Assembly: GCA_012799605.1 (NCBI GenBank)
Contig: JAAZKX010000011.1
Coordinates: 1 to 64,000, forward strand
From: Bacillota bacterium
Lineage (GTDB): Bacteria; Bacillota; DTU030; DUMP01
Direction of reading: 5' to 3'
Length of the DNA stretch: 64,000 nt
Shown: positions 4,018 through 62,571 of the stretch, piece by piece
Position numbering within the stretch: the stretch's first letter is position 1
How the letters are laid out: every line of letters begins with the position of its first letter
Notes under the pieces: model-generated
Told to the model about the DNA's origin: nothing
Databases searched by the model: none
The model's input: only the letters and a program-made list of their open reading frames with translations
Position numbers and translations under genes: made by a program

Positions 4018-4202
4018 ACTCTAATCCTCCTTATTTTGGTACTAGTGCCCCGATGAGCAAATTGCACCATGAGTCTACTACTTCTACAAAAGTAGGTGAA
4101 TTCCTCCCATTGGGTCCAATTATTATCATTGGGTAAGTTTTGAAGGTGATAACTAGTTACCCTTGGTTTTATTGGGGGAATTATCGGTAAATTGGGCCAG
4201 GA

Positions 4203-4241
4203 TTAAGCCCTAAAACCTACCCCAGTGGTTTTAGGGCTTAA
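4203..4241 (-). terminator. terminator after the MBL hydrolase
   Basis: Perfect 15-bp inverted repeat (arms 4203-4217 and 4227-4241, core AAGCCCTAAAACC) with a 9-nt loop, beginning 37 nt past the stop at 4278. It closes the recJ-relA-dtd-MBL transcription unit. Only a short U-run follows. Confidence 0.7.
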
Positions 4242-4277
4242 TGCAGACAGTATTTTAAGACGGGCCTACCGTTATAT

Positions 4278-5353: not shown

Positions 5354-5365
5354 ATTCCTCCCCCT

Positions 5366-7525
5366 TTAGCTTGGCGACGCCCGCTCCACACTAAATACAT
5401 CCCGAACCGAACTCAAACGGTCAATCACAACCCTCAGCTCATCAAGATTTTTAATCTCCAGCCGTAAGCTAATCAAGGCCTTCATATCGCGGGTTGTCTG
5501 GGCATTTACAGCGTTTATACGGGTTCGCATATCGTTTAAAATATTCATAATGTCACTGAGAAGTTCCGGCCTATCCATGGCAGCAAGCTTGATATCGGCG
5601 GTGAAAAAAGCCGTTTGCTCCCGGTCCCAGCCCACCTCGATAAGCCGCTCCGGGTCACTGAGAAAAGCCACATTGGGACAGTTAACCCGGTGCACGGAAA
5701 CGCCCCGGCCCCGAGTAACATAGCCTACAATGGGATCGCCGGGTACGGGGTTGCAACAATGTGATAAGCGAATCAGCAAATTGTCTACACCCTTTACCTT
5801 AACCCCCCGCCCGGTATCGGCAGACCGTTGGCGGGGTTTTAGATCCGGTATTTCAGCCTCGATTGCCTCCTCAGGGTGTAAACGGCGATATTGCTGCCGC
5901 AGATGTGTGATCACCTGATTTACGGACAAACCGCCATAACCGATCGAGGCCAACAAATCCTCGCTGGTTGAAAAAGAAAATCGTTTCAGAACTGCCTCCA
6001 AAATATTGTCTGCTAGCAGTTCATGCGGTTCGTACCCTAGTTTACGAATTTCCTTTTCGATTATTTCTCGCCCGCGGGCTGTGCTTTCCTCTTTGCGTTC
6101 TCGTTTAAACCATCGTCGTATTTTAGCTTTGGCCTGGGGCGTCCGCACCAATTTGAGCCAATCGCGGCTCGGCCCGGCTGCCAACTTGCTGGTTACAATC
6201 TCGACAATATCACCATTCTGCAGCTTGTAATCCAAAGGCACCAAGTGTCCGTTTACTTTAGCACCAATGCAGCGATGCCCTATATCAGTATGAATGCGAT
6301 AAGCAAAGTCGATAGGGCATGATCCAGCTGGCAAATCAATGACGTCCCCACGGGGCGTAAATACGAATACTTCATCGGTAAACAAATCTATTTTTAGCGT
6401 TTCCATAAATTCACGGGCATCGCGTAAATCATGTTGCCATTCCAGTAGCTGCCGCAACCATAATAGCTTTTGATCAAATTCGTCACTGCTTGTGGTTCCT
6501 TCTTTGTAGCGCCAATGGGCCGCAATACCATATTCCGCCGTCTTATGCATATCCCAGGTACGAATCTGTATCTCCAACGGTTCCCCTTGGGGGCCGATTA
6601 CGGTAGTATGCAGTGACTGGTACATATTGATTTTGGGCATAGCAATATAGTCCTTGAAGCGCCCCGGTACCGGTTTCCAAAGGGTATGAACTACACCTAA
6701 CACACCATAACAGTCCTTAATGCTGTCCACAATTACCCGGATAGCTGTTAAATCATATATTTCACGGAACTTTTTGTTTTGGCGGTCCATCTTATTATAT
6801 ATACTGTATAGGTGCTTGGGGCGTCCCTGCGTCTCGGCCTTAATTCCAATCTCTTTAAGCTTAGGTTCAAAGATAGCCATAACCTGCCGGATATAAGACT
6901 CCCGCTCCTGCCGGTTCTTAGCAACTTTATCTACCAGTTCATAATATTTTTCTGGTTCCAGATAACGAAAAGCTGTATCTTCTAGTTCCCATTTGATCCG
7001 GAAAATGCCCAACCGGTGCGCTAACGGCGCATATACATCCAATGTTTCCTGGGCAATTTGTTTCTGTTTTTTGACCGGCAGGTACTTCAAAGTGCGGAGA
7101 TTGTGCAAACGATCAGCGAGCTTAATCAAGATAACACGGATATCTTTGGCCATGGCAAAAAACATTTTTCTTAAATTCTCCACTTGCAACTCTTCTTTGG
7201 ACTTATACTCTATCCGGCTAAGCTTGGTAACACCATCTACTAGCAAAGCAATCTCTTCGCCAAACTCCCCTTCGATATCCTGAAGGGTGTATTGGGTATC
7301 TTCCACCACATCATGCAATAAGCAAGCAGCAATCGTAATTGAGTCTAATTCGAGCTCTGCCAAAATATACGCTACTCCCAGAGGATGGTGGATATAAGGA
7401 TCGCCGGAAATGCGAAATTGCCCTAAGTGGGCTGTGGACGCAAAATCGTATGCTTTGACCACTAGGGCGAGATCGTCATTGGAGCTGTAACTTTTAAGCT
7501 TATCGTATAGTTGCTCAGGATTCAT
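5366..7525 (-). CDS. relA: bifunctional (p)ppGpp synthetase/hydrolase
   Basis: Makes and degrades the stringent-response alarmone (p)ppGpp. 719 aa, full Rel length. Domains in order: HD hydrolase (about 25-190, with HHP and LLHDVVEDT both intact), synthetase (about 225-370, with DLTAIRVIV, GRFKDYIAMPK and YQSLHTTV), TGS (about 390-450), zinc-finger/helical region with an HCC motif (SHCCNPVPGD), and ACT at the C-terminus (about 640-715). Intact motifs in both catalytic domains suggest a true bifunctional Rel. Starts ATG with AGAGGGA upstream. It follows recJ in the usual Firmicute order, but the apt gene often found between them is absent. Confidence 0.96.
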   Translation of the reverse strand: MNPEQLYDKLKSYSSNDDLALVVKAYDFASTAHLGQFRISGDPYIHHPLGVAYILAELELDSITIAACLLHDVVEDTQYTLQDIEGEFGEEIALLVDGVTKLSRIEYKSKEELQVENLRKMFFAMAKDIRVILIKLADRLHNLRTLKYLPVKKQKQIAQETLDVYAPLAHRLGIFRIKWELEDTAFRYLEPEKYYELVDKVAKNRQERESYIRQVMAIFEPKLKEIGIKAETQGRPKHLYSIYNKMDRQNKKFREIYDLTAIRVIVDSIKDCYGVLGVVHTLWKPVPGRFKDYIAMPKINMYQSLHTTVIGPQGEPLEIQIRTWDMHKTAEYGIAAHWRYKEGTTSSDEFDQKLLWLRQLLEWQHDLRDAREFMETLKIDLFTDEVFVFTPRGDVIDLPAGSCPIDFAYRIHTDIGHRCIGAKVNGHLVPLDYKLQNGDIVEIVTSKLAAGPSRDWLKLVRTPQAKAKIRRWFKRERKEESTARGREIIEKEIRKLGYEPHELLADNILEAVLKRFSFSTSEDLLASIGYGGLSVNQVITHLRQQYRRLHPEEAIEAEIPDLKPRQRSADTGRGVKVKGVDNLLIRLSHCCNPVPGDPIVGYVTRGRGVSVHRVNCPNVAFLSDPERLIEVGWDREQTAFFTADIKLAAMDRPELLSDIMNILNDMRTRINAVNAQTTRDMKALISLRLEIKNLDELRVVIDRLSSVRDVFSVERASPS

Positions 7526-47236: not shown

Positions 47237-48427
47237 CTATAATTTGGCCGCAGCCTGCTTCAATTCTTCAGTTTTATCCGTTTGCTCCCACGGCAAGTCC
47301 AGATCAATGCGGCCGAAATGTCCGTAAACTGCCAGCGGCCTGTAGATCGGCCGCCTCAAGTCCAGCCCGGATATTATGCCCGCTGGACGCAATTCGAAAT
47401 GTTCCCGTACAAGCTGGCTGATCGCAATATCGGGGATTACCCCCGTGCCAAAAGTATCGACTGTAATAGAAACCGGCCGGGCCACCCCGATAGCATAAGC
47501 TAGTTGAACCTCGCACTTTTCGGCCAGACCCGCAGCCACGATGTTTTTGGCTACATAACGAGCGGCATAACTGGCAGAACGATCTACCTTAGTCGGATCT
47601 TTTCCAGAAAAAGCCCCGCCCCCATGGCGGGCGCTACCACCATATGTGTCCACAATGATTTTACGCCCAGTAAGTCCGCAGTCAGCCGCCGGCCCCCCCA
47701 ATACAAACCGCCCGGTCGGGTTAACGTAAAATTTTGTTTTCGCATCTAAAAATTGTGCCGGGACGACCGGTTTAATCACCTCTTCAATAACATCAGCCCG
47801 GATCTGGGCCAAAGCGACATTTGGGCGATGCTGGCCTGAAACCACCACCGCGTGCACTCTCAGCGGCCGGTCGCCTTCGTACTCTACCGTAACTTGAGTT
47901 TTGCCATCGGGGCGTAAATACGGCAGCAATTCGTTTTTCCTCACCTCTGCCAACCGGCGGGCCAAACGATGGGCTAAAGATATGGGCAAGGGCATCAGCT
48001 CCGGCGTTTCCCGGCACGCATAACCAAACATCATACCTTGATCACCAGCGCCGAGTTGGTCCACAGAATCTGTCGCACCTTTTTTTGCCTCCAGGCCCTT
48101 GTCTACACCCAGGGCAATATCAGGAGATTGTTCATCAATAGCTGTCAGTACTGCACATGTATCCCCGTCAAAACCAAACTTGGCTCTGGTATAGCCAATA
48201 TCTTTCACCGTCTGACGAACCAAGCTTGGAATATCAACATAGCAGCGGCAAGAAATTTCCCCCGTTACCAATACTAATCCGGTCGTAACAACCGTTTCGC
48301 AAGCTACGCGGGCGTAGGGATCGCAAGCTAAAATAGCATCCAAAACTGCGTCAGAGACTTGATCGGCCACCTTATCAGGATGTCCTTCGGTGACAGATTC
48401 AGAGGTGAATAAATAACGACCCTGCAA
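47237..48427 (-). CDS. metK: S-adenosylmethionine synthetase
   Basis: Makes S-adenosylmethionine from methionine and ATP. 396 aa. Signatures: [29 protein letters not shown] and [17 protein letters not shown]. The upstream frame is open through a riboswitch and cannot be used; the start is a TTG at 48427 with GAAAGGAGG 7 nt upstream (an ATG there is out of frame). Expression is set by the SAM riboswitch. It supplies the methyl donor for the cobalamin ring methylases encoded next door. Confidence 0.96.
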
Positions 48428-48445
48428 CAAACATCCTCCTTTCAA

Positions 48446-48591
48446 TAAAAAAGACCGCTTCAATCCGGAAGTGGCCTTTCTGCTCCTATCTTCCAGAATT
48501 GATATTCTGCAGGAATTGGCACATGGCCAGAAAGCCTCTGGCATGCTGCCGGGCTTCATTGGGCCAGTCCCTCCACCGCTCTGGATAAGAG
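48446..48591 (-). promoter_or_regulatory. SAM-I (S-box) riboswitch with terminator, upstream of metK
   Basis: Minus strand. P1 closes perfectly (CTCTTATC 48584-48591 with GATAGGAG 48483-48490). Between them are the canonical S-box blocks: CCAGAGCGGTGGAGGGA, TGGCCC-ATGAAGCCCGGCA, then GTGCCAATTCCTGCA and GAAGATAGG. Downstream, GGCCACTTC / GAAGCGGTC followed by T6 (48446-48476) forms the expression platform. Known behaviour: bound S-adenosylmethionine causes termination before metK. Confidence 0.95.
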
Positions 48592-48696: not shown

Positions 48697-49644
48697 TTAT
48701 GTCCTTTTACGCGCGGGACGCACGAATGAAGGCTGCTTCCCGCCGGTATGACCGCCGGTCGCCGGATCGGCGCCATGGTCAGATACAACCCGGATAGTAT
48801 GGTTAGATGCCAACAGTTCTGGCAGTACCACCTGATCGATTTGCATAAGAAAGGCTTCTTTTTCCCTTTTATCCATCCTATGCGCTGCTTCGTCGCAACC
48901 GCCAATATGCAACATGGTAAATGGGTATTTTTTTGCCAGTGCCAAGGTTAGACGGGTTTTTGTACCAAGATCAGTATCGGTATCACCAGTCATTCCAGTA
49001 AGCGACACATGGTACATTTTTAGTGCCTTTGCCAGGCCCCGAATTATATTTGTAGCGCTGACAACAGCTGCTTTTACCGGAAAGGGCGGCAGGGGTTGCG
49101 CTACAGATGCCGCCCACGGAATTATTAGCCGCCGAGGATTGCTACTGTTTAGCATGATCAGGGCCTCTCTCAGTGCCGGGATGTCAGGGCTGAAGAAGTC
49201 GCGGGCATTTCGACCCAGCATTTCAAACGGTAGTAAGGCCGGGATAGAGTCGACAAAGGATGCACCTTTCGGAATAATCAGCAAGCCCTTGTAGCCGCCC
49301 AATGAAACATATCGCGCTCGCTTCAACTTAGGTAGCTTGTCCGGTTCATCACAAAAACCGATGCCGATACCCTCATCGTCCACTTCAACCCAACTGCCAC
49401 GAAAAATCAAATCATCCGGCTTAAGGTCTATCCCTGCCCCCAGGGCCTCAATCCATCCTCGTATATTTTTGGGCGGGGAAGTAAAGCCAAGAAGTGATAA
49501 CACACAAGGTAGCGTCCCCGCTTTAAAGCCGTCTGGAACCGTATTCACATGCTCACGCCTAGGAAAAGAGGCTAAGGTAGGATATTTCTTTACATTAAAG
49601 TCAGGGTCATTCATGCCATCGATAATACATAGTATCTCAGACAT
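48697..49644 (-). CDS. ApgM-like alkaline-phosphatase-superfamily metalloenzyme
   Basis: 315 aa. Fold marks of cofactor-independent/archaeal phosphoglycerate mutase (ApgM): metal Asp in CIIDGMND (D9), nucleophile position KAGTLPCVLSLLGF with Thr44 where ApgM has Ser, second-site D/H in GGCDEAAHR, and SDHGADPATGGHTGG for the remaining metal ligands. The start is the ATG with a GGGG site, overlapping the cbiC end by 8 nt; the longer frame is rejected. Last gene of the cobalamin operon. Glycolytic mutase work is unlikely from this place; a phosphatase or phosphomutase on a cobalamin intermediate is one inference. I do not know an assigned role. Confidence 0.7.
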   Translation of the reverse strand: MSEILCIIDGMNDPDFNVKKYPTLASFPRREHVNTVPDGFKAGTLPCVLSLLGFTSPPKNIRGWIEALGAGIDLKPDDLIFRGSWVEVDDEGIGIGFCDEPDKLPKLKRARYVSLGGYKGLLIIPKGASFVDSIPALLPFEMLGRNARDFFSPDIPALREALIMLNSSNPRRLIIPWAASVAQPLPPFPVKAAVVSATNIIRGLAKALKMYHVSLTGMTGDTDTDLGTKTRLTLALAKKYPFTMLHIGGCDEAAHRMDKREKEAFLMQIDQVVLPELLASNHTIRVVSDHGADPATGGHTGGKQPSFVRPARKRT

Positions 49645-50272
49645 GGTAGTCCCCTGTGGCAATTCGAAGCAAGGCGTTACAAATGGCAGCAGCAACACTA
49701 CTGCCGCCTTTACGCCCCCGTGCTGTAATATACCGTAGGCCCGAGCGCATAAGAACATCTTTAGATTCCACCACATTTACAAAACCCACCGGCACCCCGA
49801 TCACAAGTTCCGGCAAAAGCCTTCCCGCCTGTTTGAGTTTACATATTTCTAATAGGGCTGTGGGTGCGTTACCGATGGCAAAAATAAGCGGCTTGTCAAT
49901 TGCCGCCGCTTTATTCATCGCCGCTTTGGCCCGGCTGCTACCATTTTGTTTAGCCGCCCTTACTACATCCGCATCGTGCATAAAGCATAGGAGATCCCCA
50001 CCGAATGCTGCCAGCCGCTTTTTATCCACTCCGGCTTTCACCATCTCGGTATCGCTGACGATGGATACACCCCTTTGCAGGGCCGCTACCGCATGCTCTA
50101 TGACACCTTCCGAAAAAACAAGGGTTTCCAAATATTCAAAATCAGCAGTGGCATGAATGACGCGCATAATCACCGGGGCAAGGTTTGGATTGAGAGGGAG
50201 AGGCAGTTCATTTTCTATCAACTCAAAACTGCGCCGTTCAATTTCAGCCGGTTTTATAAACTTCATAGTCAA
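49637..50272 (-). CDS. cbiC: cobalt-precorrin-8 methylmutase
   Basis: Shifts the C11 methyl to C12 to give cobyrinate. 211 aa. Family signature VIHATADFEYLETLVFSEGV with the catalytic His (about 40) and SDTEMVKAGV; later FAIGNAPTAL and PVGFVNVVESK. The start may be the TTG at 50272, whose AAGGGA site is at 7 nt, or the ATG two codons on. Overlaps the cobO stop. Confidence 0.93.
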   Translation of the reverse strand: MTMKFIKPAEIERRSFELIENELPLPLNPNLAPVIMRVIHATADFEYLETLVFSEGVIEHAVAALQRGVSIVSDTEMVKAGVDKKRLAAFGGDLLCFMHDADVVRAAKQNGSSRAKAAMNKAAAIDKPLIFAIGNAPTALLEICKLKQAGRLLPELVIGVPVGFVNVVESKDVLMRSGLRYITARGRKGGSSVAAAICNALLRIATGDYHV

Positions 50273-50796
50273 AATTCAATCCCTTCGCGGGCCGCAATTC
50301 CCCTATCATGGGGATGCTTGCACTTGATAAATTTTGTTATATAATCTGCTACCTCGATAAAATGGTCTGGGACGCTCCTACCGGTTAGTACCAGCTCCAA
50401 CCCAGCTGGTTTGTTCAAAATTAGCTTATCGGCTATTTCAGTATCGAGCGCACCCTGGGCATAAGCTACGCCGATTTCATCCAGAACCAGCAATTGACAC
50501 AAGCCACTAGCAACCAGACAGCGTGCTTTCAATAGGTTTTCATTGTTTTGACATCGCATTTCTGCCCGGTCTTGGTCAGAAGCAGAGCTGTAAAAGCCAA
50601 AGTCGCGGCTATTTCGCAGGACGGTTACACCAGCTAATTGCGCCAGCGCCCGTATTTCTCCAGTTTTGCGCCCCTTGAGAAACTGCACCAACACAGTCCG
50701 CATACCGCTTCCGTAGGCCCGAAGGAGCAGACCCAATGCTGCCGTCGTTTTCCCCTTCCCGTCCCCGATATAAAGATGAATCAAGCCCTTCCTCAT
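50269..50796 (-). CDS. cobO: cob(I)yrinic acid a,c-diamide adenosyltransferase
   Basis: Transfers the adenosyl group from ATP to reduced cobalt. 175 aa, CobA/BtuR family. P-loop GDGKGKTTAALGLLLRAYG at residues 12-30, with VLVQFLKG and LLVLDEIGVAYAQG. ATG with GGAGG upstream. After a 230-nt gap from cbiA. Confidence 0.94.
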   Translation of the reverse strand: MRKGLIHLYIGDGKGKTTAALGLLLRAYGSGMRTVLVQFLKGRKTGEIRALAQLAGVTVLRNSRDFGFYSSASDQDRAEMRCQNNENLLKARCLVASGLCQLLVLDEIGVAYAQGALDTEIADKLILNKPAGLELVLTGRSVPDHFIEVADYITKFIKCKHPHDRGIAAREGIEF

Positions 50797-51026: not shown

Positions 51027-52352
51027 TCATTTTGGGCAAAGCACCATCCTCCTCACAAAGCTAGCGGCGAAAGCAGGGTTAGAGGGAAAATAAAGATATG
51101 GGAATCCGGCATATAAGTTAGCTCTTGTATGAATACAAGGATAGCTAAGATCACGCCCGGCTTTCTTGGCCACGAAATGGTCACCGGGACTATCGCTATC
51201 CCAATAATGGAACTCATGCGAACGGATAGATTCACCGGCCCCACAGAGCAAATTATCCCGCCGCGCAGTCAAGGTAATGTACCCAAAACGCTGAAGGCGT
51301 TTTCTAGTAAATGCAGCCCCCCGAATTAGTCCGCACATGGGCATCCCATCTAAACTGTTGTGTAAGTAGACAAAGCCGCCCCCCTCTGCTATAGTCGGAA
51401 GGCCCCCTTCCACTGCTTGGCGGATGCTCTCGCGCATGGTTTTGTTTTTTGATAGAGCCCTGACATAACGTTCTGGGTAGCCGCCGCCCAAATAGAGCCC
51501 ATGGATCTGCCTTGGAATAGCACGATCGCGAAGCGGGCTAAAAAACAGCAATTCACAGCCTAATGCCTCAAGTAACTCCAGATTTTCCTTATACGAAAAA
51601 CAAAAAGCCTCGTCCCGGGAAAAAGCCAGCCGTACTTTCTTTTTTTGATAGTGCCGTATTGCTCGGGCAGCAGGCAAAGGAGGAGCTGTCTCCGCTAACG
51701 CCAACAGACCGTCCAGATCCAGGCCCCGAGCTGCTTGGCGGCCCAAAGCTGACAGAGCAGCGGTAAGAGCCGCCATCTCATCCGGTTTCAAAAGGCCGGG
51801 ATGGCAGTCTGGTAAGGCCCATTCATTCCTAGACGGCATTGCGCCATAAGAGGCAAGTCCCGCTTCCTCGGCGAAAGCCTTTAGATCAGGATAGCGGGCT
51901 GCACTGGCATGGTTAAAGATAACCCCGCTAATATGACTGGGGTGACGGTAGCGGGCAAAGCCCTTGATAGAAGCAGCTAATGACTTTCCGGCCCTCGCGG
52001 CGCTGACCACAAGGATGGTGGGCGTATTTGTCTCCCTGGCTACGGTATAGGCCGAGGCATCGTCGCTGGCACCGATACCGTCATAATAACCCATCGCCCC
52101 CTCTATCACCGCCACCTCCCCCGCCCGGCGGGCCAAATGGGAACGCAATCCATCGCCATCAAGGAAAAAGGGATCCAGGTTATAGGCACCAATAGCAGAA
52201 ACTGACCGGTGAAAGATGGGATCTATATAGTCAGGCCCGCATTTAAAGGCTGTGGCTATCACACCGCGCCCTTTCAGCGCCGATAAAATGGCGCAAGTCA
52301 CAGTAGTTTTACCACAGCCGCTGTGCGTTCCCGCAATCAGCAGCCGTTTCAT
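51027..52352 (-). CDS. cbiA: cobyrinate a,c-diamide synthase with altered glutaminase site
   Basis: ATP-dependent amidation of cobyrinate side chains a and c. 441 aa. N-terminal dethiobiotin-synthetase-like ATPase (about 1-190) with P-loop AGTHSGCGKTTVT and IEGAMGYYDGIG; C-terminal glutamine amidotransferase (about 238-435) with GLYLGGGYPE and the His in SHEFHYW (H379). The nucleophile position, normally Cys in AECGG, reads IAEGGGFVYL, so Cys is Gly324 (codon GGG, 51381-51383). The rest looks intact, suggesting an enzyme fed by free ammonia or a misread base. Overlaps cbiET by 4 nt. Confidence 0.92.
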   Translation of the reverse strand: MKRLLIAGTHSGCGKTTVTCAILSALKGRGVIATAFKCGPDYIDPIFHRSVSAIGAYNLDPFFLDGDGLRSHLARRAGEVAVIEGAMGYYDGIGASDDASAYTVARETNTPTILVVSAARAGKSLAASIKGFARYRHPSHISGVIFNHASAARYPDLKAFAEEAGLASYGAMPSRNEWALPDCHPGLLKPDEMAALTAALSALGRQAARGLDLDGLLALAETAPPLPAARAIRHYQKKKVRLAFSRDEAFCFSYKENLELLEALGCELLFFSPLRDRAIPRQIHGLYLGGGYPERYVRALSKNKTMRESIRQAVEGGLPTIAEGGGFVYLHNSLDGMPMCGLIRGAAFTRKRLQRFGYITLTARRDNLLCGAGESIRSHEFHYWDSDSPGDHFVAKKAGRDLSYPCIHTRANLYAGFPYLYFPSNPAFAASFVRRMVLCPK

Positions 52353-53542
52353 AAGTTATCCCCGCCTACACTCAAGATGGTAATAGGGTTTTGAGCTTGC
52401 ATCAGATGCAAATCCCCGCTTCTCCTGCCCCGGGCGACATTTAGCTGCACAATTTCCGGCTCTAAACCAAGGGCAGAGAATTTGCTAATTGCTTGAGCCA
52501 CAGTTTCAATGGTCACTGCGGTAATAACAATTCGCGCTCTCGGATTCTTGGCCAAAACGGCGGCCAGGATCGCCTGTACTTTGCCGCCGCTGCCGCCGAT
52601 GAAAACTGCATCAGGCGGAGGAAGGGCCTCCAATACCTCCGGGGCTTCCCCACCGATGAGGGAAACGTTCCCCACCTTAAAGGCAGCACAGTTTTCCTTA
52701 ATCAAGGATAGGCCCTCATCACGGCGCTCCACAGCATATACATGACCGTCATAGGCATTAAGCGCCATCTCTACCGTCACCGAGCCAGTTCCGGCACCGA
52801 GGTCCCAGCAGACAAAGTTTGGGCGTAGGTTTAGCTTCGACAGCACAACCGCCCGGGTTTCACTTTTAGTCAGGGGAATCGTAGCCGAGCGAATAAAACA
52901 ATTGTCTGGCAACCCGACTGGGGTTGTATCGTCAAACGCTTCGTTTTCAAGCAGTAATACTGACAGCGATGGGAAATCCCCCTGCGCCAGGGCCTCCAGC
53001 TGTGTTTCATAAACACGTTCGTCCTCCGTACCCAGGTTTTCCCCCACGAAGGCCCTTATTTTTTTGAAGCCGACATCGCCTAACATAGCGCCGATTTCGT
53101 TGACCTTGTTCCCTGTGAGACAAAATGTTAGGCGATTGCGCCGTACTGTATCGATGATAGCCAAGTCCCTCCCATGGGTACTCACAAACACCGCATCCTG
53201 CCAGGGCAGCTTTAACCTAGCAAAAAAAGCAGCGACAGTAGAGATGCCCGGTACGAGGCGGACCTGATAGGCTGCCAACGCCGTCGTCAGTCCTATCGCT
53301 GCACTATAAAAGCCCACATCACCAGATACGAGCACAGCAAATTCCGCCGCCTCCTCCTTAGCAACAATAGCTGATACCTCCTGGGGTAAATAACAGGGAT
53401 AAGAACGAGCGTGAGATCCTTTGAATAAATTCAACAGCCTGGGCGCGCCCAAGAGAACATCAGCCTGCGCTATCGCTTGCCGCGCGTCCCCCGTAATAGT
53501 GCCCTCCCCCAAACCTACACCGACAATATTTATCCTCTTCAT
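52349..53542 (-). CDS. cbiET: cobalt-precorrin-7 C5,C15-methyltransferase (CbiE-CbiT fusion)
   Basis: 397 aa, two enzymes in one chain. CbiE half (about 1-205): tetrapyrrole methylase with GVGLGEGTITGDARQAI, VSGDVGFYSAAIGL and VPGISTVAAFFARL. CbiT half (about 210-397): Rossmann methylase with DLGAGTGSVTVEMAL, the S-adenosylmethionine motif, and the decarboxylation at C12 follows. Equivalent to CobL of the aerobic pathway. ATG. Confidence 0.93.
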   Translation of the reverse strand: MKRINIVGVGLGEGTITGDARQAIAQADVLLGAPRLLNLFKGSHARSYPCYLPQEVSAIVAKEEAAEFAVLVSGDVGFYSAAIGLTTALAAYQVRLVPGISTVAAFFARLKLPWQDAVFVSTHGRDLAIIDTVRRNRLTFCLTGNKVNEIGAMLGDVGFKKIRAFVGENLGTEDERVYETQLEALAQGDFPSLSVLLLENEAFDDTTPVGLPDNCFIRSATIPLTKSETRAVVLSKLNLRPNFVCWDLGAGTGSVTVEMALNAYDGHVYAVERRDEGLSLIKENCAAFKVGNVSLIGGEAPEVLEALPPPDAVFIGGSGGKVQAILAAVLAKNPRARIVITAVTIETVAQAISKFSALGLEPEIVQLNVARGRRSGDLHLMQAQNPITILSVGGDNL

Positions 53543-54291
53543 AGGCCCAACCTCGCAATGTGTCTACAGGCTATTTCTACGGAAACACCTCCGCGGTCAT
53601 TCGGTTTTGCCAGTACCGCCGTGAGCATTCCTAGGCTTTTGGCCGCGCGAATTTTTTCGGGAAATCCACCTGTACGGCCTGAATCCTTGGTCACGAGAAT
53701 TCTAGCTCCGGTGGCCTTAAACATGGCCCGGTTGAGCTCCTCCGAAAACGGTCCCTGCATACAAATAAGCTTGTCCGGACCGTAGCCAAGAGCAAGGCAG
53801 TGACTGAGACTATTTATACAGGGTAAAACGCGCAGCCAGACTCGCTGCTGATATTGTGGCAAGCCTACAAACACCCTAGCCGAAGACGAACCTGTGGTCA
53901 CAAAGATGCCGCCTGGCTCCCCTTTGAGCCAATCTATCAAATCATCCATATTATCGAAGTAGATGCAGGCTCGCTCTTTGACACTTTCTCTAACAATGCG
54001 TACAAGAGGAATATTCGCTCGCCTACAAGCGAGAGCGATATTTCGGCTGGCTTCCTCAGCATAGGGATGGGTGGCATCATAAACTTGGGCAGGAACGTTT
54101 TCAAACAACAGTTCAGCCATCTGGTCTACCCCCAGCCGCCCAATCCGCACCTCCACCAGCGGCAAGGCTTCAACCGCGCGAGCACCGGCCTCAGTTGCAA
54201 CAGAATATATAATCGGAACCCCACAGTGGGCGCCAATCTCACATAGTTTCCGCCCTTCGCTGGTGCCCCCGAAAACAAGAGCCTTAATCAT
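53539..54291 (-). CDS. cbiJ: cobalt-precorrin-6A reductase
   Basis: NADPH- or NADH-dependent reduction of the macrocycle. 250 aa, CbiJ/CobK family with FGGTSEGRKLCEI at the start, DATHPYAEEASRNIALAC, GGIFVTTGSSSARVF and the terminal TKDSGRTGGFPEKI. Start at 54291 (ATG, GGGG 8 nt upstream); overlaps both neighbours. Confidence 0.92.
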   Translation of the reverse strand: MIKALVFGGTSEGRKLCEIGAHCGVPIIYSVATEAGARAVEALPLVEVRIGRLGVDQMAELLFENVPAQVYDATHPYAEEASRNIALACRRANIPLVRIVRESVKERACIYFDNMDDLIDWLKGEPGGIFVTTGSSSARVFVGLPQYQQRVWLRVLPCINSLSHCLALGYGPDKLICMQGPFSEELNRAMFKATGARILVTKDSGRTGGFPEKIRAAKSLGMLTAVLAKPNDRGGVSVEIACRHIARLGL

Positions 54292-55015
54292 GACCATATC
54301 CCCTGGGTGTAACCATGCGTCCGCCGATATTACGGGTTCCTGTGTTACCGATAAAAACGATTTCCGTCATCCCAACTACTTCCGTTCGTAGTTTACCTAA
54401 AGTCGTAATCGAAATCGATTGCCCTTCCCGAGCAATATTACGGGCAATTCCACAGAGGCGATCTTCCGGTATTTTTTCTAGCAAGATATTACAGGCAGCG
54501 CGCAAATGCCCTGCTCTTTGCTTGCTGCCGGGATTGTATAAGCATAGAACAAAATCGCCCTCAGCGGCAGCCCGCAAGCGCTTTTCGATAATTTCCCACG
54601 GGGTCAATAAATTGCTGAGGCTGATCACGACAAAGTCATGACCGATGGGCGCGCCTAGCAAGGCTGCCCCGCTTACTGCCGCTGTCACGCCTGGAATAAC
54701 CTCGATCTCAATTTCCGGCCCCTTTTCAGCAAGTTCATATACTAGGCTTGCCATCCCATAAACCCCACTGTCGCCGCTGGAGACAAGGCTTGCAGTTTTT
54801 CCGCTTTCCACCAATTCGATGGCTTTGCGGCAGCGTTCTACTTCTTTCCCCATCCCTGTTTCGTAATAATCCTTATCCGGAAATAGCGGACGCAACCGTT
54901 CGATATAGGCCGTGTAACCTACGATAACATCTGATTCGCGCAGGCACTTGCAAGATAATTTTGTCATATTCCCAGCGTCGCCGGGTCCAAAACCAACAAC
55001 ATACAATTTACCCAC
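54284..55015 (-). CDS. cbiH: cobalt-precorrin-3 C17-methyltransferase
   Basis: Ring-contracting methylase. 243 aa, tetrapyrrole methylase fold with LYVVGFGPGDAGNMT, SSGDSGVYGMASLV, VIPGVTAAVSGAALLG and LVLCLYNPGSKQR-type NPxS motif. A GTG at 55015 has AAAAGGGG upstream and overlaps the cbiG stop by 8 nt; two TTG codons further up are less likely. Confidence 0.93.
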   Translation of the reverse strand: MGKLYVVGFGPGDAGNMTKLSCKCLRESDVIVGYTAYIERLRPLFPDKDYYETGMGKEVERCRKAIELVESGKTASLVSSGDSGVYGMASLVYELAEKGPEIEIEVIPGVTAAVSGAALLGAPIGHDFVVISLSNLLTPWEIIEKRLRAAAEGDFVLCLYNPGSKQRAGHLRAACNILLEKIPEDRLCGIARNIAREGQSISITTLGKLRTEVVGMTEIVFIGNTGTRNIGGRMVTPRGYGHD

Positions 55016-55823
55016 TTGCAATCCCCTTTTCAAACACCGCCACGGCTACGCCATCTTTGGCTGTTTTTTGTAAAATTAGTTTACCAGCGCGACCGCACAA
55101 GGCAGCCGCGCGTTCACAGACATTATCAACCCCTACCGTCCGCAAGACCAGATCGGAAGAGGTAAATTCACCTTGGACTTGTGCCAGTTCTGCCGCCGAA
55201 TAAAAGTGAAGCGGAAGATTGTGCGCCGCTGCAAAGCCGAGCAAACCTTCCTCCTGCCGCTTAAGATCGAGCGTGGCTAGCTGGCAAATTCGGCTGAGGG
55301 AGATTTTTTGATCTCCCAGTAAAATGGTCACCGCCCGTTCGATGGTTTTGGCTGAAGTCCCCCGCCGACAACCGATCCCCAAAACCAGGTTCTGCGGCTG
55401 CTGCTCGCTTAAGCTGACAGCGTAACAAGCGCTGGCAGTGGTAATTACCGGAGTAGCGTTGACCAAGGCGGCTATTTGCTCCGTTAATTGATTTGCCCCC
55501 CCTGCGTGTCCCGACAGGAGGCTAATAGCAAAACGCCCCCTTTCATCACAAACCACCACAGCCGGATCAGTTCTTTTGTCCTTCACCAGCGGTGCGATCG
55601 CCCGCACTGCAATGCCACAAGCACCGACGAAAACCAATGCATCCTTCTGGTCAAATAGTCGGAACGCAAGTTCATAAACAGAATCGAAGGGTTCAAACAC
55701 CCCCCCTTTGGCCTGGCGTGCAGCTAGATAATAGCTTATTTCGTGTCCTCGGTCCTGCAAGGCCCCCAACCGCTCCATTAGGGCGGCACCGCTGGTCGAG
55801 AAAGCAATGGCAGCGATCCTCAT
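55008..55823 (-). CDS. cbiG: cobalt-precorrin-5A hydrolase
   Basis: Opens the lactone and releases acetaldehyde in the anaerobic pathway; its presence identifies that pathway. 271 aa. N-terminal CbiG_N with FVGACGIAVRAIAPLVKDKRTDPAVVV split region and SLLSGHAGGANQL; C-terminal CbiG_C starting LVLGIGCRRGTSAKTIERAV. Overlaps cbiF by 4 nt. Confidence 0.93.
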   Translation of the reverse strand: MRIAAIAFSTSGAALMERLGALQDRGHEISYYLAARQAKGGVFEPFDSVYELAFRLFDQKDALVFVGACGIAVRAIAPLVKDKRTDPAVVVCDERGRFAISLLSGHAGGANQLTEQIAALVNATPVITTASACYAVSLSEQQPQNLVLGIGCRRGTSAKTIERAVTILLGDQKISLSRICQLATLDLKRQEEGLLGFAAAHNLPLHFYSAAELAQVQGEFTSSDLVLRTVGVDNVCERAAALCGRAGKLILQKTAKDGVAVAVFEKGIASG

Positions 55824-56581
55824 TCCTTTTTCCCCCGATATTCAGTAGAGAAATCTGGGGAATACAGGCGGGACAAGTGGTAAAGATCTCCGAGAAAATC
55901 ACCAATACAAACGAGCGCAGTTTTGCTGATCTGATTCTCAGCGGCACTTTTGGCCAGGCTGCTGACAGTACAGCGAATGATTGTCTCTTGCGGCCAGCTT
56001 GCCTTATAGACAATAGCGGCCGGAGTATTAGGCCCATATCCGCCGGCAATTAAATCTTTGGCTACAGATTCCAATAAGCCAGCGCTAAGAAATAATATCA
56101 TTGTTGCCCCATGTGCGGCTAGCATACGAATGCTTTCTTTTTTCGGCACTGGAGTCTTGCCGGCAGCCCTTGTAATGATAACGGTTTGGGAAATTCCAGG
56201 CACAGTGTACTCGCTTTTTAAAGCAGCCGCAGCAGCAGAAAAACTTGACACCCCAGGGCAGATCTCATATTTGATACCGAGGGCACTTAATTTAGCCATC
56301 TGCTCCCGTATAGCCCCATACAAGCTCGGATCGCCTGTGTGCAAACGCACAACAGTCTTGCCCTGACCGACGGCGGTCTTCATAATTTCCACCACTTCAT
56401 CCAACGTCATCTTAGCGCTATTGTGAACCTCACTTTCGCGCCTAAGATCCAAAAGCAGCTTAGGATTCACCAAGGAACCGGTGTATATAACTACATCCGC
56501 CCCTTCAAGCAGTAACTTTCCGCGCAAGGTGATCAAATCCGGCGCCCCGGGTCCGGCTCCGACAAAATGCACCATACTCAT
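55820..56581 (-). CDS. cbiF: cobalt-precorrin-4 C11-methyltransferase
   Basis: 253 aa, tetrapyrrole methylase with VHFVGAGPGAPDLITLRG, VVRLHTGDPSLYGAIREQM and CPGVSSFSAAAAAL. Good GGAGGAG upstream. Four-base overlap (ATGA) with cbiD. In the anaerobic route it acts after CbiH. Confidence 0.95.
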   Translation of the reverse strand: MSMVHFVGAGPGAPDLITLRGKLLLEGADVVIYTGSLVNPKLLLDLRRESEVHNSAKMTLDEVVEIMKTAVGQGKTVVRLHTGDPSLYGAIREQMAKLSALGIKYEICPGVSSFSAAAAALKSEYTVPGISQTVIITRAAGKTPVPKKESIRMLAAHGATMILFLSAGLLESVAKDLIAGGYGPNTPAAIVYKASWPQETIIRCTVSSLAKSAAENQISKTALVCIGDFLGDLYHLSRLYSPDFSTEYRGKKE

Positions 56582-57672
56582 ATCGAAAACAACTCCTCCA
56601 TTTTTTCGCCCCTTCCGCTAAAGCAAACCAGGCTAATATCAAGACAGCGGGCAAAATGTCGTTCCAGCATATCTTGGATCCGGTCGCGTAACAATCGTAT
56701 TGTAATATCCATCCATTCTGTTTCCCGCAGGCAATCAAGGGCAGCATCAGTAGTGACCTGATCCTTTATTTGGTGGAGCAATTCCAAAGGTGCCCCTGCT
56801 TGCAGCGCCACGGCGATCAGGGCCTCTATCCGCCCATCGCCATAACTAGAATGAGTGTTTGTGATGCCAATAGCTAGCTTGATGATCTTTCCAATATGCC
56901 CAATTAACAAAGCACGTCTAAATCCCCTTTCCGCCGCGGCCGAGAGGGTTTCACCGATGAAGTTCGAGCATTTGACATGGGATTCCAGAGACAGACAGAG
57001 TTTGTTTCGGGCAAATTGTTCACCATAATTTCCAATAGTCAAAACCACTTCCCGGTAACCAGCCACATATAAAAGGCTGAGCTGGGCCCTAAGGGTCCCT
57101 ATTATTGCGCTTTCACTCCTGGGTTCAACGATACCAGTTGTACCGAGAATGGAAAGCCCGTCCGCAATGCCTAAACGCGGGTTAAACGTACGCCGGGCTA
57201 ATTCCTTACCGTCTGGGATGGAGATAATAATCGACAAGCCGCCGCTATAATTATAGTTCCTACAAACAGTTTTACACTCTTTATAAATCATTTGGCGCGG
57301 TATCGTATTGATGGCATGGGCACCCACAGGCTGATCGAGTCCGGGCTTAGTTACGCGCCCGATCCCTTGGCCACCGCTGATTTTAATCCCAGCGGGCGCA
57401 AGGGATACAGAAGCATAAACGTAGCAGCCGTTTGTTACATCCGGGTCATCACCACTATCTTTTTGGATGGCGCAGGAAACACACCCCGGCAACAGCTTGA
57501 TATCCAGCACCTTCAACCTTAAGGTAATTCCGCTCGGTGTTACTAATGTCACCGCCTGACAAGGAGTTTGCCTCAAGAGCATTGTGGTCGCCGCTTTTGC
57601 CGCCGCTGCCGCGCAAGATCCTGTGCTATAGCCTCGGCGTAGCATTTTTCCACCAATAAAACGAAATTTCAT
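56578..57672 (-). CDS. cbiD: cobalt-precorrin-5B C1-methyltransferase
   Basis: 364 aa. CbiD signatures: RRGYSTGSCAAAAAKAA near the start, IGRVTKPGL, GGLSIIISIPDGKELA and TSGI-type LSILGTTGIVEP. ATG at 57672, GGGG upstream, next to the ABC ATPase stop; the frame's longer version overlaps that gene and is rejected. CbiD is specific to the anaerobic pathway. Confidence 0.94.
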   Translation of the reverse strand: MKFRFIGGKMLRRGYSTGSCAAAAAKAATTMLLRQTPCQAVTLVTPSGITLRLKVLDIKLLPGCVSCAIQKDSGDDPDVTNGCYVYASVSLAPAGIKISGGQGIGRVTKPGLDQPVGAHAINTIPRQMIYKECKTVCRNYNYSGGLSIIISIPDGKELARRTFNPRLGIADGLSILGTTGIVEPRSESAIIGTLRAQLSLLYVAGYREVVLTIGNYGEQFARNKLCLSLESHVKCSNFIGETLSAAAERGFRRALLIGHIGKIIKLAIGITNTHSSYGDGRIEALIAVALQAGAPLELLHQIKDQVTTDAALDCLRETEWMDITIRLLRDRIQDMLERHFARCLDISLVCFSGRGEKMEELFSI

Positions 57673-57673
57673 A

Positions 57674-58432
57674 CTACAATTCCCCGAACAGCTCGGTATA
57701 GGTTCCAGCTGGCAGATCATAAAGTCGGCTAATGGTTTCTTCCGTAAAAATAGCCTCCGGTTCACCGAGCTCCATAACATAGCCATTTTTTATACAAATC
57801 ACAAGATCAGACACCCGTCTGGCATAATTTAATTCATGTAGGGACATAATCACCGTCACCTTGCGCTCAGTAGCTAGCCGGTGCAAAACATCGAGGATTT
57901 CCACCGCATACCGTATATCTAAAAAAGAAGTCGGCTCGTCCAAAATGATGATTTCCGGCTCCTGGCAAAGCGCCCGGGCCAACATGATACGCTGCAACTG
58001 ACCATCGCTCACTTCAGTTAAATTTCTGTCCATTAACTCCAGAGCCTTAACCAAGGACAGGGCTTCAGCAATCTTTTCTTTGTCTTCGTCGGATAAAATC
58101 CCCAGCTTGCCCGTGTAGGGATAGCGCCCCACCGCCACTAGTTCTCCGCAGGTCATCAGCTCCGGCTGAGGCCGTTCAGTCGACACAATGGCCATCTGGC
58201 GGGCTAGCCTTTGGGGATTGATAGCTTCAAGTGGGGTGTCATTGATCAAAGCCACACCGCTAATGGTTTTCAGCTGACTGGCCATGCTTTTAAGTATGGT
58301 TGATTTACCAGAGGCATTGGGGCCAATTAAGGTGGCTATCTGTCCCTTTTTGACAGACGCTTCAATGTCTTTGACAACAGGCCTACCATTGTAACCCACG
58401 GTGAGTTTTTCGGCGCGGAAATAATATTCCAC
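57674..58432 (-). CDS. corrinoid/iron-siderophore-type ABC transporter ATPase
   Basis: BtuD/FecE-like. 252 aa. Walker A LIGPNASGKSTILK, Q-loop near STERPQPE, signature VSDGQLQRIMLARAL (slightly altered LSGGQ, reading VSDGQ), Walker B IIILDEPTSFLDI. The start is a GTG with GGAGGAG that overlaps the permease stop by 1 nt. Operon position points to cobalamin or precursor import. Confidence 0.9.
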   Translation of the reverse strand: MEYYFRAEKLTVGYNGRPVVKDIEASVKKGQIATLIGPNASGKSTILKSMASQLKTISGVALINDTPLEAINPQRLARQMAIVSTERPQPELMTCGELVAVGRYPYTGKLGILSDEDKEKIAEALSLVKALELMDRNLTEVSDGQLQRIMLARALCQEPEIIILDEPTSFLDIRYAVEILDVLHRLATERKVTVIMSLHELNYARRVSDLVICIKNGYVMELGEPEAIFTEETISRLYDLPAGTYTELFGEL

Positions 58433-59427
58433 TACTCTCCTCCCACCCTCCCGGCCATAATCCAAATGACTACCGGCGCGCCCAACAAGGAGCTGACCGA
58501 ACTGATACTCATCTCCATTGGAGCATAAATTGTTCGGGCAACCAGATCGCAACCGAGACAAAATACTGCGCCGCCAAGGAAACAAAAGGGAATCACAATG
58601 TGTGGCTTGGAGGTCCTGGTAATAGCCTTAATAAGATGTGGCACGGCAACTCCCACAAATGAAACCGGGCCGGCAAAAGCTGTTACACAGGCGCATAAAA
58701 TACTAGATAGTAAAATGAGTAAGATCCGAAACACCCTGATGTTTACCCCCACACTTTGCGCATAACTTTCACCCAGCCGATAGGCACTGATGGGCTTAGA
58801 AAGAAAAAAAGTAGTAACCGCTGCCACAAAGATCACCGCCGCCATCACCCGGACATCGGCCCACGATGTCCCAGAAAAACTGCCCTGTGACCAATGGTGC
58901 AGGTTGACAATATTTTCATCACTTGCAAATACAACCACGAAATCAGTAATGGCCGAGCAGATATAACCAATCATCACCCCACTGATAATGAGTGACGAGG
59001 TGCGATTGACCCGCCGCGCCACCGCTAGCACAAAAGCCATTGAAAGCATGGCCCCGACAAAAGCTGCAGAAACTATCATCTTTGAATTGACAGTAAAACC
59101 CCGGCCCAGGACAAATACCATAACCAAAGCCACAATCAACTTTGCCCCCGCAGAAATGCCCAACACAAATGGCCCCGCGATGGGATTGCCAAAGAAAGTC
59201 TGGAGTAAAAAACCTGACAGCGCCAAGGCGCCGCCTAAAACAGTAGCGGCAGTCAAACGCGGAAGTCGCACTTTCCACAAAATATCGTGTTCGATTGTGT
59301 TTGGGATCAGAGCCTGGCCCAGCGGCATCTTGACACTGCCCATTTTGATGTTCAGCCCCACTAAAGCGAAAAAAAGTAGGAAGAGCACGAGCGCTATCAA
59401 TAGCTGGCGCATGCGCCAGGTTCTCAT
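58432..59427 (-). CDS. corrinoid/iron-siderophore-type ABC permease
   Basis: BtuC/FecCD family, 331 aa, about ten transmembrane helices. Signature stretches: TVLGGALALSGFLLQTFFGNPIAGPFVLGISAGAKL and FAGPVSFVGVAVPHLIKAITRTSKP with the ATPase-coupling loop; LDLVARTI-type ending CDLVARTIYAPMEM. ATG at 59427 with GGAGTAG. Partner of the flanking lipoprotein and ATPase. Confidence 0.92.
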   Translation of the reverse strand: MRTWRMRQLLIALVLFLLFFALVGLNIKMGSVKMPLGQALIPNTIEHDILWKVRLPRLTAATVLGGALALSGFLLQTFFGNPIAGPFVLGISAGAKLIVALVMVFVLGRGFTVNSKMIVSAAFVGAMLSMAFVLAVARRVNRTSSLIISGVMIGYICSAITDFVVVFASDENIVNLHHWSQGSFSGTSWADVRVMAAVIFVAAVTTFFLSKPISAYRLGESYAQSVGVNIRVFRILLILLSSILCACVTAFAGPVSFVGVAVPHLIKAITRTSKPHIVIPFCFLGGAVFCLGCDLVARTIYAPMEMSISSVSSLLGAPVVIWIMAGRVGGE

Positions 59428-59452
59428 TACTACTACTCCTTCCTTCACTGTA

Positions 59453-60610
59453 TCACTGTAATTTATAATAATAATTCAGCTTTGTCTTGTTATTTGTTTT
59501 ACCCGTAAATATCCGATTCAGGTCTGCTATCATCGAGCCAAACTCGGTCGTCTCCTGAAAGAGATTCTTGTTAGTACACCAGACATTTCCGCTTTTTACC
59601 GCCTCGAAATCAGCCAGCAAATGGCTTTTTGCCAACAGTTCAGCCAGGCTATGCACTTCACCATCGATAGCACTATTGTATATAATGATGTCTGCCTTCT
59701 TGGCCCTAGTATAGAAATGCTCCAAGTCAAGATTCATCGGTCCCGCTCCATTATCAGAGTCGCCGCTATCGGCAAATACATAACGTCCGCCCGCAAGCTC
59801 TATCATCTTACTGGTGTAGTCGCCACCCTTGCGCACCACCGCATTGCCAGCTGAACTGATATAGAAGAAGGCAACGCTTTTACCGGTACTCTCAGACGGT
59901 ATCCGGTGAAGATATGTGACCTGTTCATCAAACAAGGTTTGGGCTCGTTCTTCTTCCCCACATAGCAATCCGTATAGCTTAATCCATTCGGTTCTTCCCA
60001 AAGGATGGGGCTCATAGCTGGAGCGTTCCACCAGGACCGGGATACCCAGGTCCTCCAACTTTTCTTTAACCTCTGGCGTATGCAAAATCATTGTGGACTC
60101 AATGGCTAGATCGCAGCCTTTTGAAATCAACAGTTCATAATCCGGTGCACTGTACTTACCTGCATAAACAATATCGCCTTCTTCCATCGCCACCCGTGCC
60201 TTTTCAATGTACCAGCCATCTGCCTTCGTGCCACTCATGGAAATATGGTCCAATGAGTTTAAGGCATCAAAAAGGCACATAGCCGAGGTTGCTGCTAAGT
60301 AAATGTTTTTCAGCGGCTGGCGGAGGATAGTGACATCGCTACTGATATTGGCCGGAGGCTCCTTCCCTTCGGGGACCAGAAGGAAACACCCGCTTTCGCT
60401 TATTGATATTAAAGAGCAGCCATTAGCCAGATGGTCAACAATAAATTGCTGCGCGTATTCAAGATCCATTCTGTCCACGATCTTTAAACCATCAAAGTTT
60501 ACTGCATCTGGCCCCTGGCCACAACCGGGCAGTGCCAGGGCCAGAAGTAACGCAAACAAAATGGGCCTTAAAATTTTACTGGACTGAAGCCGGGTCGAAT
60601 CGCAAATCAT
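59453..60610 (-). CDS. ABC transporter substrate-binding lipoprotein (BtuF/FepB-like)
   Basis: 385 aa. Signal sequence to about 30 with lipobox LALPGC; then a periplasmic-binding class III fold with ISMSGTKADGWYIEKARVAM, LISKGCDLAIESTM and LVERSSYEPHPLGRTEWIKL. The ligand may be cobalamin, a corrinoid or heme. Start at the ATG with GAAGGAG. Overlaps the CbiK-like gene end by 35 nt. Confidence 0.88.
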   Translation of the reverse strand: MICDSTRLQSSKILRPILFALLLALALPGCGQGPDAVNFDGLKIVDRMDLEYAQQFIVDHLANGCSLISISESGCFLLVPEGKEPPANISSDVTILRQPLKNIYLAATSAMCLFDALNSLDHISMSGTKADGWYIEKARVAMEEGDIVYAGKYSAPDYELLISKGCDLAIESTMILHTPEVKEKLEDLGIPVLVERSSYEPHPLGRTEWIKLYGLLCGEEERAQTLFDEQVTYLHRIPSESTGKSVAFFYISSAGNAVVRKGGDYTSKMIELAGGRYVFADSGDSDNGAGPMNLDLEHFYTRAKKADIIIYNSAIDGEVHSLAELLAKSHLLADFEAVKSGNVWCTNKNLFQETTEFGSMIADLNRIFTGKTNNKTKLNYYYKLQ

Positions 60611-62201
60611 ATTCAATCTCCTTCGGAGTACTCATGGCAACGGTACAAGCCTTGATCGGTAAGTCCACATCAAATTCAATGGGGATTTCAAAGGTAGAGT
60701 TACCCTCCACGTTAATGGGCATAAATTTCACCCCATCCACCAACAGGTAAGTATAGTTGGGGCTACTCCAGACAATACGCGCCATATTTGTTCCCTTGCG
60801 ATAAAATAGGGTTGCCGGAGACTCTATGCTAGCTTTTCCTGCTCCGCCTGTCATTTCAACCTTTACCTGGGCCGGAATAAAAGCCTCCTCCGGTATATTT
60901 TCTGATTGAAAGATAATAAGATGATCATACCAGTTCCCGCTCTTGGTTCCTTGTCCCGCACAATCGAGATCAATATCTAGGGCGGCCACAGGCACGGTAA
61001 AGGTATGTTTGCCGTCAAGAAGGAGGGGGCTGATCTGATTTGCTTCGTCAGCCGCTGCCTCCGCCCCTTTACCCATGTAAAGGGCGGAATATCCGCGACC
61101 ACTTAGTGTAATAGTGGCCATCATCTTCTTGTCTTCTACCGTCAACTGGCAATCTACAATTTTGAACATCGCGGTATCAGAATCAACCTCAATTGAATAG
61201 GTGCCATTTTGAATTCGGGCCGCGGTAACACCAGCGGCAGCTGCCGCTGGTACTGCCTCAACAGGGTCTCCAGCAATTGCCTCTTGAAGATGGCGAATAT
61301 AAATATCTTGTATACCCTTGATTTGCCCGAGACCTTTAAGCACAGTTTCTACCATGTAGCCATCTTCCTCAAGGATTGTCCGCCATGAATCTTCGCCGGC
61401 CCCGGCCATATCATTATTAGCATGATCCCCGGCAACCACCATCAGCGGCCGCAGAACCACCTTGCTAATACCCATTTGGGACAGCTGTTCTCGCACTTGA
61501 TCGATCTCAATCCCCCGCTCCACTGTTCCAATAATATAATCATGGTAGCCCTTGGCCGCCAGGACAGCCTGAAGTTTTACATAAGTGGCCCTGGCCTCAT
61601 GTTCTGTGCCGTGCCCCATGAATACAAGTGCTGTATCATCCGCCCTGAACTTTGCAGTTTCTTTTACAATTAGCTCGCTAACTTCATCATAGTCAGCCTC
61701 ATCAGCGAGGAGCCACTTGCCAATTTTGAGGCTGTCAAACTTGTCCGCAAAAGGCATCACTTCCTTAATCATATCTTCGTACTCAAAGCCATTCATCACT
61801 GTGGTCGGTTGGACTATAACTTCCTTGACCTTATCGAGCACCAGACGGTTCATCGCCTCAGTTACGTTATCAATGACCAGGCCTTCGCGTTTGGCCAGCT
61901 TATCGATGATAATTTGGCTGGTAAATGCCCTCCGCACCTGGTAATTAGGAAAAGCGTTTTGGATTGCGGTTTCAATGCCACCAATGTTAAGGTTTCGGCT
62001 TTGGTTATAGCTGGTACCAAAGCTAACCACTAAAATCACCTTGTCAGTGGCTGATGTGTTGACAATATCATCTGTTTCAGAAATACCCACTTCATAACCA
62101 TTAGAATAGTCCCCATTATTTACAGTGGCTGAGCACCCGGCAATTAGCGCCAGTGATAAGGTAATAACCAGTACGAGCGCTAAAATCCTACCTTTTCTCA
62201 C
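60576..62201 (-). CDS. exported CbiK-type cobaltochelatase lipoprotein with tandem beta domains
   Basis: 541 aa. Signal sequence with lipobox LALIAGC (Cys about 23), so membrane-anchored outside. Chelatase domain (about 52-310) of sirohydrochlorin cobaltochelatase CbiK with its catalytic residues: His197 in FMGHGTEHEA, Glu228 in IGTVERG, His260 in MVVAGDHANND. Then an Ala-rich linker and two beta-rich repeats (about 325-435 and 445-535), each with a Tyr-rich strand (RGYSALYMGKG; PNYTYLLVDGVKF), that look like NEAT-type modules, but weakly. GTG start with GGGAGG. First gene after the cobalamin riboswitch. Confidence 0.82.
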   Translation of the reverse strand: MRKGRILALVLVITLSLALIAGCSATVNNGDYSNGYEVGISETDDIVNTSATDKVILVVSFGTSYNQSRNLNIGGIETAIQNAFPNYQVRRAFTSQIIIDKLAKREGLVIDNVTEAMNRLVLDKVKEVIVQPTTVMNGFEYEDMIKEVMPFADKFDSLKIGKWLLADEADYDEVSELIVKETAKFRADDTALVFMGHGTEHEARATYVKLQAVLAAKGYHDYIIGTVERGIEIDQVREQLSQMGISKVVLRPLMVVAGDHANNDMAGAGEDSWRTILEEDGYMVETVLKGLGQIKGIQDIYIRHLQEAIAGDPVEAVPAAAAAGVTAARIQNGTYSIEVDSDTAMFKIVDCQLTVEDKKMMATITLSGRGYSALYMGKGAEAAADEANQISPLLLDGKHTFTVPVAALDIDLDCAGQGTKSGNWYDHLIIFQSENIPEEAFIPAQVKVEMTGGAGKASIESPATLFYRKGTNMARIVWSSPNYTYLLVDGVKFMPINVEGNSTFEIPIEFDVDLPIKACTVAMSTPKEIEYDLRFDPASVQ

Positions 62202-62284: not shown

Positions 62285-62571
62285 AAAAAAGCGAAGATGC
62301 AATGCATCTCCGCAACCGATTTCTCGCAGACCCCCTATCTCCTGTACTCGCAGGTTAGATATGGCAATCAAAGCCGGTCTCCTGACTCTCGTGTTGGTGG
62401 TATAAACCACAGTCCATTGCTCTGCCTTACCGTATAAATCACAGTGGCTGACTTGCGCCAACGAACAATGGACACACGCCTACAGTGGCGGTACCGTGCG
62501 GTTAAACGCAAAGCGCTCTCCGCGTTCCCAGTTAATCCGGTCGGCAACCCCTCTTAAGTTATTTCCCAATG
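62285..62571 (-). promoter_or_regulatory. cobalamin riboswitch with terminator
   Basis: Minus strand. The B12 box GAGTCAGGAGACCGGC lies at 62373-62388 (consensus AGYCAGGAGACC), and the core CCGCCACTGT at 62482-62491. GGTTGCCGACCGG and TTAACTGGGAACGCGG occupy the 5' part. The expression platform is a stem GCGGAGATGC / GCATCTTCGC followed by T6 (62285-62313), which would end transcription when corrinoid is bound. It controls the operon that begins at 62201. Confidence 0.92.

Follow-up and report, generated by a model that had tools for sequence, protein, structure and literature searches.

The presence of a corrin pathway without synthesis of its ring precursor has been a puzzle for more than 20 years, and in Porphyromonas gingivalis it was called an "enigma" (Roper 2000, as cited in PMC13227078). 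Shelton et al. (PMC6461909) recognise tetrapyrrole-precursor salvagers as a class of their own, whose members are for the most part Firmicutes and host-associated; ALA dependence was shown in three salvager species, the supply of the precursor is discussed as open, and P. gingivalis is given as lacking precorrin-2 synthesis. The ihtABCDE operon of P. gingivalis encodes a BtuB-like receptor, an outer-membrane chelatase and an ABC cassette, with a B12 riboswitch upstream (PMC3764172). A review credits FetB of this organism with the formation of Mn-protoporphyrin (PMC13402209), and FetB activity towards protoporphyrin and heme has been reported. An exported relative is also known from Desulfovibrio vulgaris, which has two functional CbiK proteins according to the title of Lobo 2008 (cited in PMC12654859). 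A literature search, with most subscription journals outside its coverage, returned no paper combining "NEAT domain" and "cobalamin riboswitch".

We analysed a window of 64,000 nucleotides from a Bacillota bacterium (contig JAAZKX010000011.1, positions 1 to 64,000), which holds on its minus strand a gene for a predicted exported CbiK-NEAT-NEAT lipoprotein (60576-62201, stop included). The gene was delimited from its open reading frame, profile search and inspection of the start site. Its GTG start at 62201 is preceded, 7 bases 5' and thus at good spacing, by GGGAGG; the open reading frame list opens the same frame 6 bases earlier at TTG 62207, and residues are counted here from that TTG (543 aa). 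A plus-strand reading of 60576-62201 was rejected, as no open reading frame is present there. By inspection, the signal peptide runs through the lipobox LIAGC with Cys25 (62133-62201, minus strand). In the set of 81 homologous CbiK ORFs, a lipobox is recognisable in 73, and another 5 show a stretch that resembles a signal. The lipobox claimed in the initial annotation is common in the family, and it suggests that the protein is exported and lipid-anchored at the surface.

Residues 56-311 (61275-62042, minus strand) are predicted from Pfam, PDB alignment and the structural model to be a complete CbiK chelatase domain. They match Pfam CbiK (PF06180) over profile positions 1-261 of 262 with E=1.5e-78 and 264 bits, against a cut-off of 26.2 bits. 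Glu142 (codon 61782-61784), His199 (61611-61613) and His262 (61422-61424), all on the minus strand, align with the metal-site residues Glu89, His145 and His207 of Salmonella CbiK, and this triad is invariant in all 87 CbiK domains of the window and its relatives, so that the catalytic residues are kept as first noticed. The protein differs from the classical cobaltochelatase equivalog (NF047852): it scores 231 bits where 400 are needed, and it bears a lipobox where classical CbiK has no export signal. When the whole-protein model was compared with the PDB, Salmonella CbiK (1qgo), P. gingivalis FetB (9b86) and the Desulfovibrio periplasmic CbiK were found with TM 0.90-0.94 of the target, and in the sequence comparison 9b86 was the second-best match. 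We take IhtB to be the same protein as FetB and presume that it belongs to the CbiK family, consistent with this sequence match.

The chelatase domain is followed by two beta-rich repeats on the same strand, aa 331-443 (60879-61217) and aa 444-543 (60579-60878), as the initial annotation had described; they are homologous to each other with a profile-profile probability of 98.7%. That annotation had guessed a NEAT identity and proposed a structure prediction and a PF05031 search as the check. The Pfam NEAT profile weakly matched 24/44 and 23/44 family members in the searches for the two repeats, while the window's own two repeats gave no match at the gathering score. The family profile of repeat 1 matched NEAT5 of IsdX2 with E=3.5e-4. 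The search with the whole model returned only chelatases, so the repeats were folded on their own; the predicted model of the pair reached pLDDT 96, and NEAT tandems ranked first in the structure search. Repeat 2 matched single NEAT structures with Z up to 11.6 over 101 residues, against 5.6 for unrelated entries, and the fold of repeat 1 was covered by the tandem IsdH/IsdB alignments together with its sequence profile. An Ig-like (Big) identity was rejected: aBig_2 matched weakly, but the best 44 structure matches were NEAT throughout, the 38th in the repeat-2 comparison being the related Shp. The profile searches and modelling bore out the NEAT guess, and both repeats are, in the predicted structures, divergent NEAT domains with a clear fold.

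Neither domain keeps the YxxxY heme-ligand motif of the last strand, since the first Tyr, which is the usual heme ligand, is absent in both. In repeat 1, in which MF and YD are invariant, the canonical Tyr position holds mostly Lys, Gly, Arg or another residue, and Ser in the window. In repeat 2, the family motif is HxxxY and the window has KxxxY; His occurs at the Tyr position or at most two residues away in 41/44 relatives, the position being read from a gapped profile alignment whose placement is uncertain by two residues.

Between the gene start and a divergent QueT gene, we found a cobalamin riboswitch aptamer (RF00174, 62355-62567, minus strand, 37.7 bits against a gathering score of 31.5) with the B12 box GAGTCAGGAGACC. 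A terminator-like hairpin with a T run (62291-62313, minus strand) lies between the aptamer and the gene, and is likely the expression platform of the riboswitch, judging from its sequence and position. Downstream on the minus strand, profile search identified a BtuF-like substrate-binding lipoprotein (Peripla_BP_2, 59453-60616), a BtuC-like FecCD permease (58432-59448) and a BtuD-like ATPase (57674-58585), which together form a Peripla_BP_2, FecCD and ABC ATPase set. The permease scored 197 bits on the BtuC equivalog, where 334 are needed, with BtuC still its best family, and a search of the BtuF-like protein against the PDB found no sequence match. Both the cobalamin riboswitch and the adjoining BtuFCD-like system had been claimed for this locus and were recovered. 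The gene order then continues on the same strand with CbiD (56578-57786, profile search), a CbiF-type methyltransferase (TP_methylase, 55820-56581, assigned as CbiF from order and similarity), CbiG (55008-55823), CbiH (54284-55033), CbiJ (53539-54297), a CbiE-CbiT fusion (52349-53542) and, by profile search, CbiA (51027-52352), a CobO/BtuR corrinoid adenosyltransferase (50269-50796) and CbiC (49637-50272).

The last gene of the cob operon, which overlaps cbiC, encodes a phosphoglycerate-mutase/metalloenzyme-like protein (48697-49776, minus strand) that may serve as an alternative phosphatase in the nucleotide-loop branch. Directly past this operon of SAM-consuming Cbi methyltransferases, a SAM riboswitch (48483-48591) and metK (47237-48559) are found, both on the minus strand.

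One scan of GTDB contigs yielded 80 loci with relatives, mostly from gut Clostridia. BtuF-, BtuC- and BtuD-like genes were present at 67, 66 and 65 of these 80 loci, the operon often continued into cbi ring-building genes in the same survey, and a cobalamin riboswitch lay upstream of the module in 26 of the 31 related loci scanned. The NEAT part was found fused to CbiK, encoded by a separate neighbouring gene, or fused to BtuF, the last in 12 ORFs of relatives. In two loci (L024, whose operon is similar and which encodes a relative of the window protein, and L059), CbiK, one or two NEAT domains and BtuF formed a single chain. A one-off fusion artefact was rejected as an explanation, because more than 590 matching stretches were found to encode relatives, with split forms occurring alongside fused ones. 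The fusion of CbiK to NEAT represents one version of a conserved operon that is headed by a cobalamin riboswitch and is widespread in gut Clostridia. The swapping of fusion partners among CbiK, NEAT and BtuF suggests a physical hand-over between these parts.

Several other architectures were observed. At L039 (7350-9227), a CbiK-NEAT protein with predicted export bears three SLH domains and no recognised lipobox; SLH domains tether proteins at the cell surface. Tandem CbiK-CbiK arrangements in one predicted exported chain were present at L018, L019, L025, L063 and L078, with catalytic residues intact in both copies, and L078 also encodes a single 980-residue protein (3365-6307) in which five NEAT-like domains precede a BtuF-like part. 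Another kind of exported CbiK, lacking NEAT, was found at L105, L109, L110, L112-L114, L119, L120, L122 and L123; some genomes of this group have a second, cytosolic CbiK, and FecCD-type genes are near some of these loci.

The gene content of 37 carrier genomes, including that of the window, was tested family by family. These genomes are mostly drafts of unstated completeness; they were picked for their resemblance to the window protein, and because of common descent the counts are not independent. CbiD was found in 36/37 and HemB in 11/37, with HemB not detected in 26/37, and the presence of HemC and Met8 tracked HemB closely. The module is thus not confined to auxotrophs. In 23/37 carriers, all with CbiD, the search detected none of HemB, HemC, Met8, CbiX, CobN and a second CbiK, which leaves the exported CbiK as the only cobalt-chelatase candidate detected there. 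The 23 include Butyrivibrio sp. FCS014 (L027 = G019), whose record is not titled as a metagenome bin, and the window's own genome (G000), a 92.5% complete assembly in which CbiD was found and HemB, HemC and Met8 were not. With these early genes undetected and corrin-ring genes present, G000 fits a tetrapyrrole-precursor salvager, a call made from HemB, HemC, Met8 and CbiD. Absence in one draft genome is weak evidence and repeated joint absence is stronger. In the two searched genomes of the window's genus, neither CbiD nor HemB was found.

For 15 of the 23 (G000 and 14 more), the search gave no CbiL, so sirohydrochlorin would be unusable by the classical route in those genomes. Where CbiL is missing, the entering ring may already be methylated at C20, or the step may be performed by an unknown enzyme. 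CbiL is missing also in the HemB-positive G017 and G029, and the anaerobic corrin pathway of G000 and the 14 seems otherwise present.

As a control, 299 genomes of the phylum were sampled. HemB was present in 40 of the 47 CbiK carriers searched and nearly always in genomes with cytosolic CbiK, while just 4 of the 10 genomes recognised as carrying CbiK-NEAT lacked it. The HemB contrast between exported-only and cytosolic CbiK (6/18 vs 2/26, p=0.048) was weak, with classes assigned by hand from N-termini.

From computed features, namely the catalytic residues, the export signal, the NEAT fold, the riboswitch, the operon, the fusions and the loss of both ring synthesis and any other chelatase, we infer a ligand, a direction of metal exchange and a hand-over. 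The module would be the entry part of a route that makes cobamides from salvaged tetrapyrroles. At low cobamide, the riboswitch would permit reading of the operon; outside the membrane, the lipid-anchored CbiK would bind a metal-free isobacteriochlorin obtained by scavenging, either sirohydrochlorin or a near derivative like factor III, and insert cobalt into it there. The two NEAT-like domains would accept the product and hand it to the BtuF-like protein, the BtuCD-like proteins would import it, and cytosolic Cbi enzymes would complete the corrin ring. There is good support for the anatomy, the regulation and the NEAT fold, and to this capture, extracellular cobalt loading and import of a sirohydrochlorin-type ring we give an even chance.

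The main rivals to this salvage route are corrinoid capture and heme use. The cobalamin riboswitch and BtuFCD-like neighbours would suit a surface binder likened to the Bacteroides surface lipoproteins, in which CbiK and NEAT have lost metal insertion and hold cobalamin or cobinamide for the importer. Such capture seems unlikely, as the triad invariant in 87 domains is unexpected in a mere binder, the ring-building cbi genes often in the operon are needless for a corrinoid salvager, and the search of the 23 carriers turned up no further cobalt chelatase. Alternatively, as proposed for IhtB/FetB, the exported CbiK might strip iron from heme or swap its metal, and NEAT might deliver the heme or porphyrin to the importer. 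This agrees with FetB, described as a heme/porphyrin chelatase, as the second-best PDB match and with the classical role of NEAT domains as heme carriers, but both domains lack the canonical ligand Tyr; because of the cobalamin riboswitch and the cbi gene partners, a plain heme system is not favoured, and we consider heme piracy rather improbable.

The initial annotation had proposed "cobalt or tetrapyrrole capture" at the surface. Its cobalt half, in which the chelatase fold holds Co2+ at the surface and concentrates it for uptake, is in line with cobalt supply as a limit on B12 synthesis and with the crystallisation of Desulfovibrio periplasmic CbiK with cobalt, but the FecCD-type importer and NEAT are better suited to a ligand the size of a tetrapyrrole than to a bare ion, and we regard this half as very improbable. 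The tetrapyrrole half is the best fit to the genomes: since many carriers lack both tetrapyrrole synthesis and another detected cobalt chelatase, extracellular loading of a scavenged precursor is preferred over capture of cobalt or heme. The 11/37 carriers with HemB, the CbiL gaps, the weak phylum contrast and the action of FetB on protoporphyrin and heme count against the salvage route. In its wider form, that many gut bacteria perform the committed cobalt-insertion step of B12 outside the cell through a chelatase-NEAT-binding-protein relay, on a factor III-like ring if CbiL is missing, the proposal is tentative and somewhat short of an even chance. If it is true, CbiL-less carriers would point to later ring intermediates being shared between species.

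Compared with known systems, the window protein shares its fold (TM 0.94) and metal-site residues with Salmonella CbiK (1qgo), which is cytosolic and single-domain. It resembles D. vulgaris periplasmic CbiK (2xvx) in predicted export and in fold (TM 0.92), whereas the solved D. vulgaris chain has no NEAT domains. The NEAT part resembles that of Isd and the IsdX hemophores (4h8q, 4myp, 3qug) in fold and in a tandem surface arrangement feeding an ABC importer, but differs in that the ligand Tyr is absent (NEAT2 having the His, or Lys in the window, noted above), it is fused to a chelatase and it is under cobalamin control; the salvage reading would give NEAT domains a role beyond heme. The host resembles the tetrapyrrole-precursor salvagers in having corrin-ring genes without tetrapyrrole synthesis; the excerpt of PMC6461909 names this phenotype, an uptake system not being found in that text, and the operon offers concrete candidates for the parts that would catch a precursor, load it with cobalt and bring it into the cell. 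The nearest relative is IhtB/FetB (9b86) of P. gingivalis with its B12-riboswitch operon. Both systems combine a CbiK-family chelatase located outside the cytoplasm (by prediction in the window protein), with kept catalytic residues, an ABC cassette, a B12 riboswitch and a host without precorrin-2 synthesis. P. gingivalis, in contrast, is Gram-negative and uses an outer-membrane BtuB-like receptor, and its chelatase, solved as a chain without NEAT, was studied as a heme/porphyrin protein; the operon described here suggests re-examining such heme-centred readings of IhtB/FetB.
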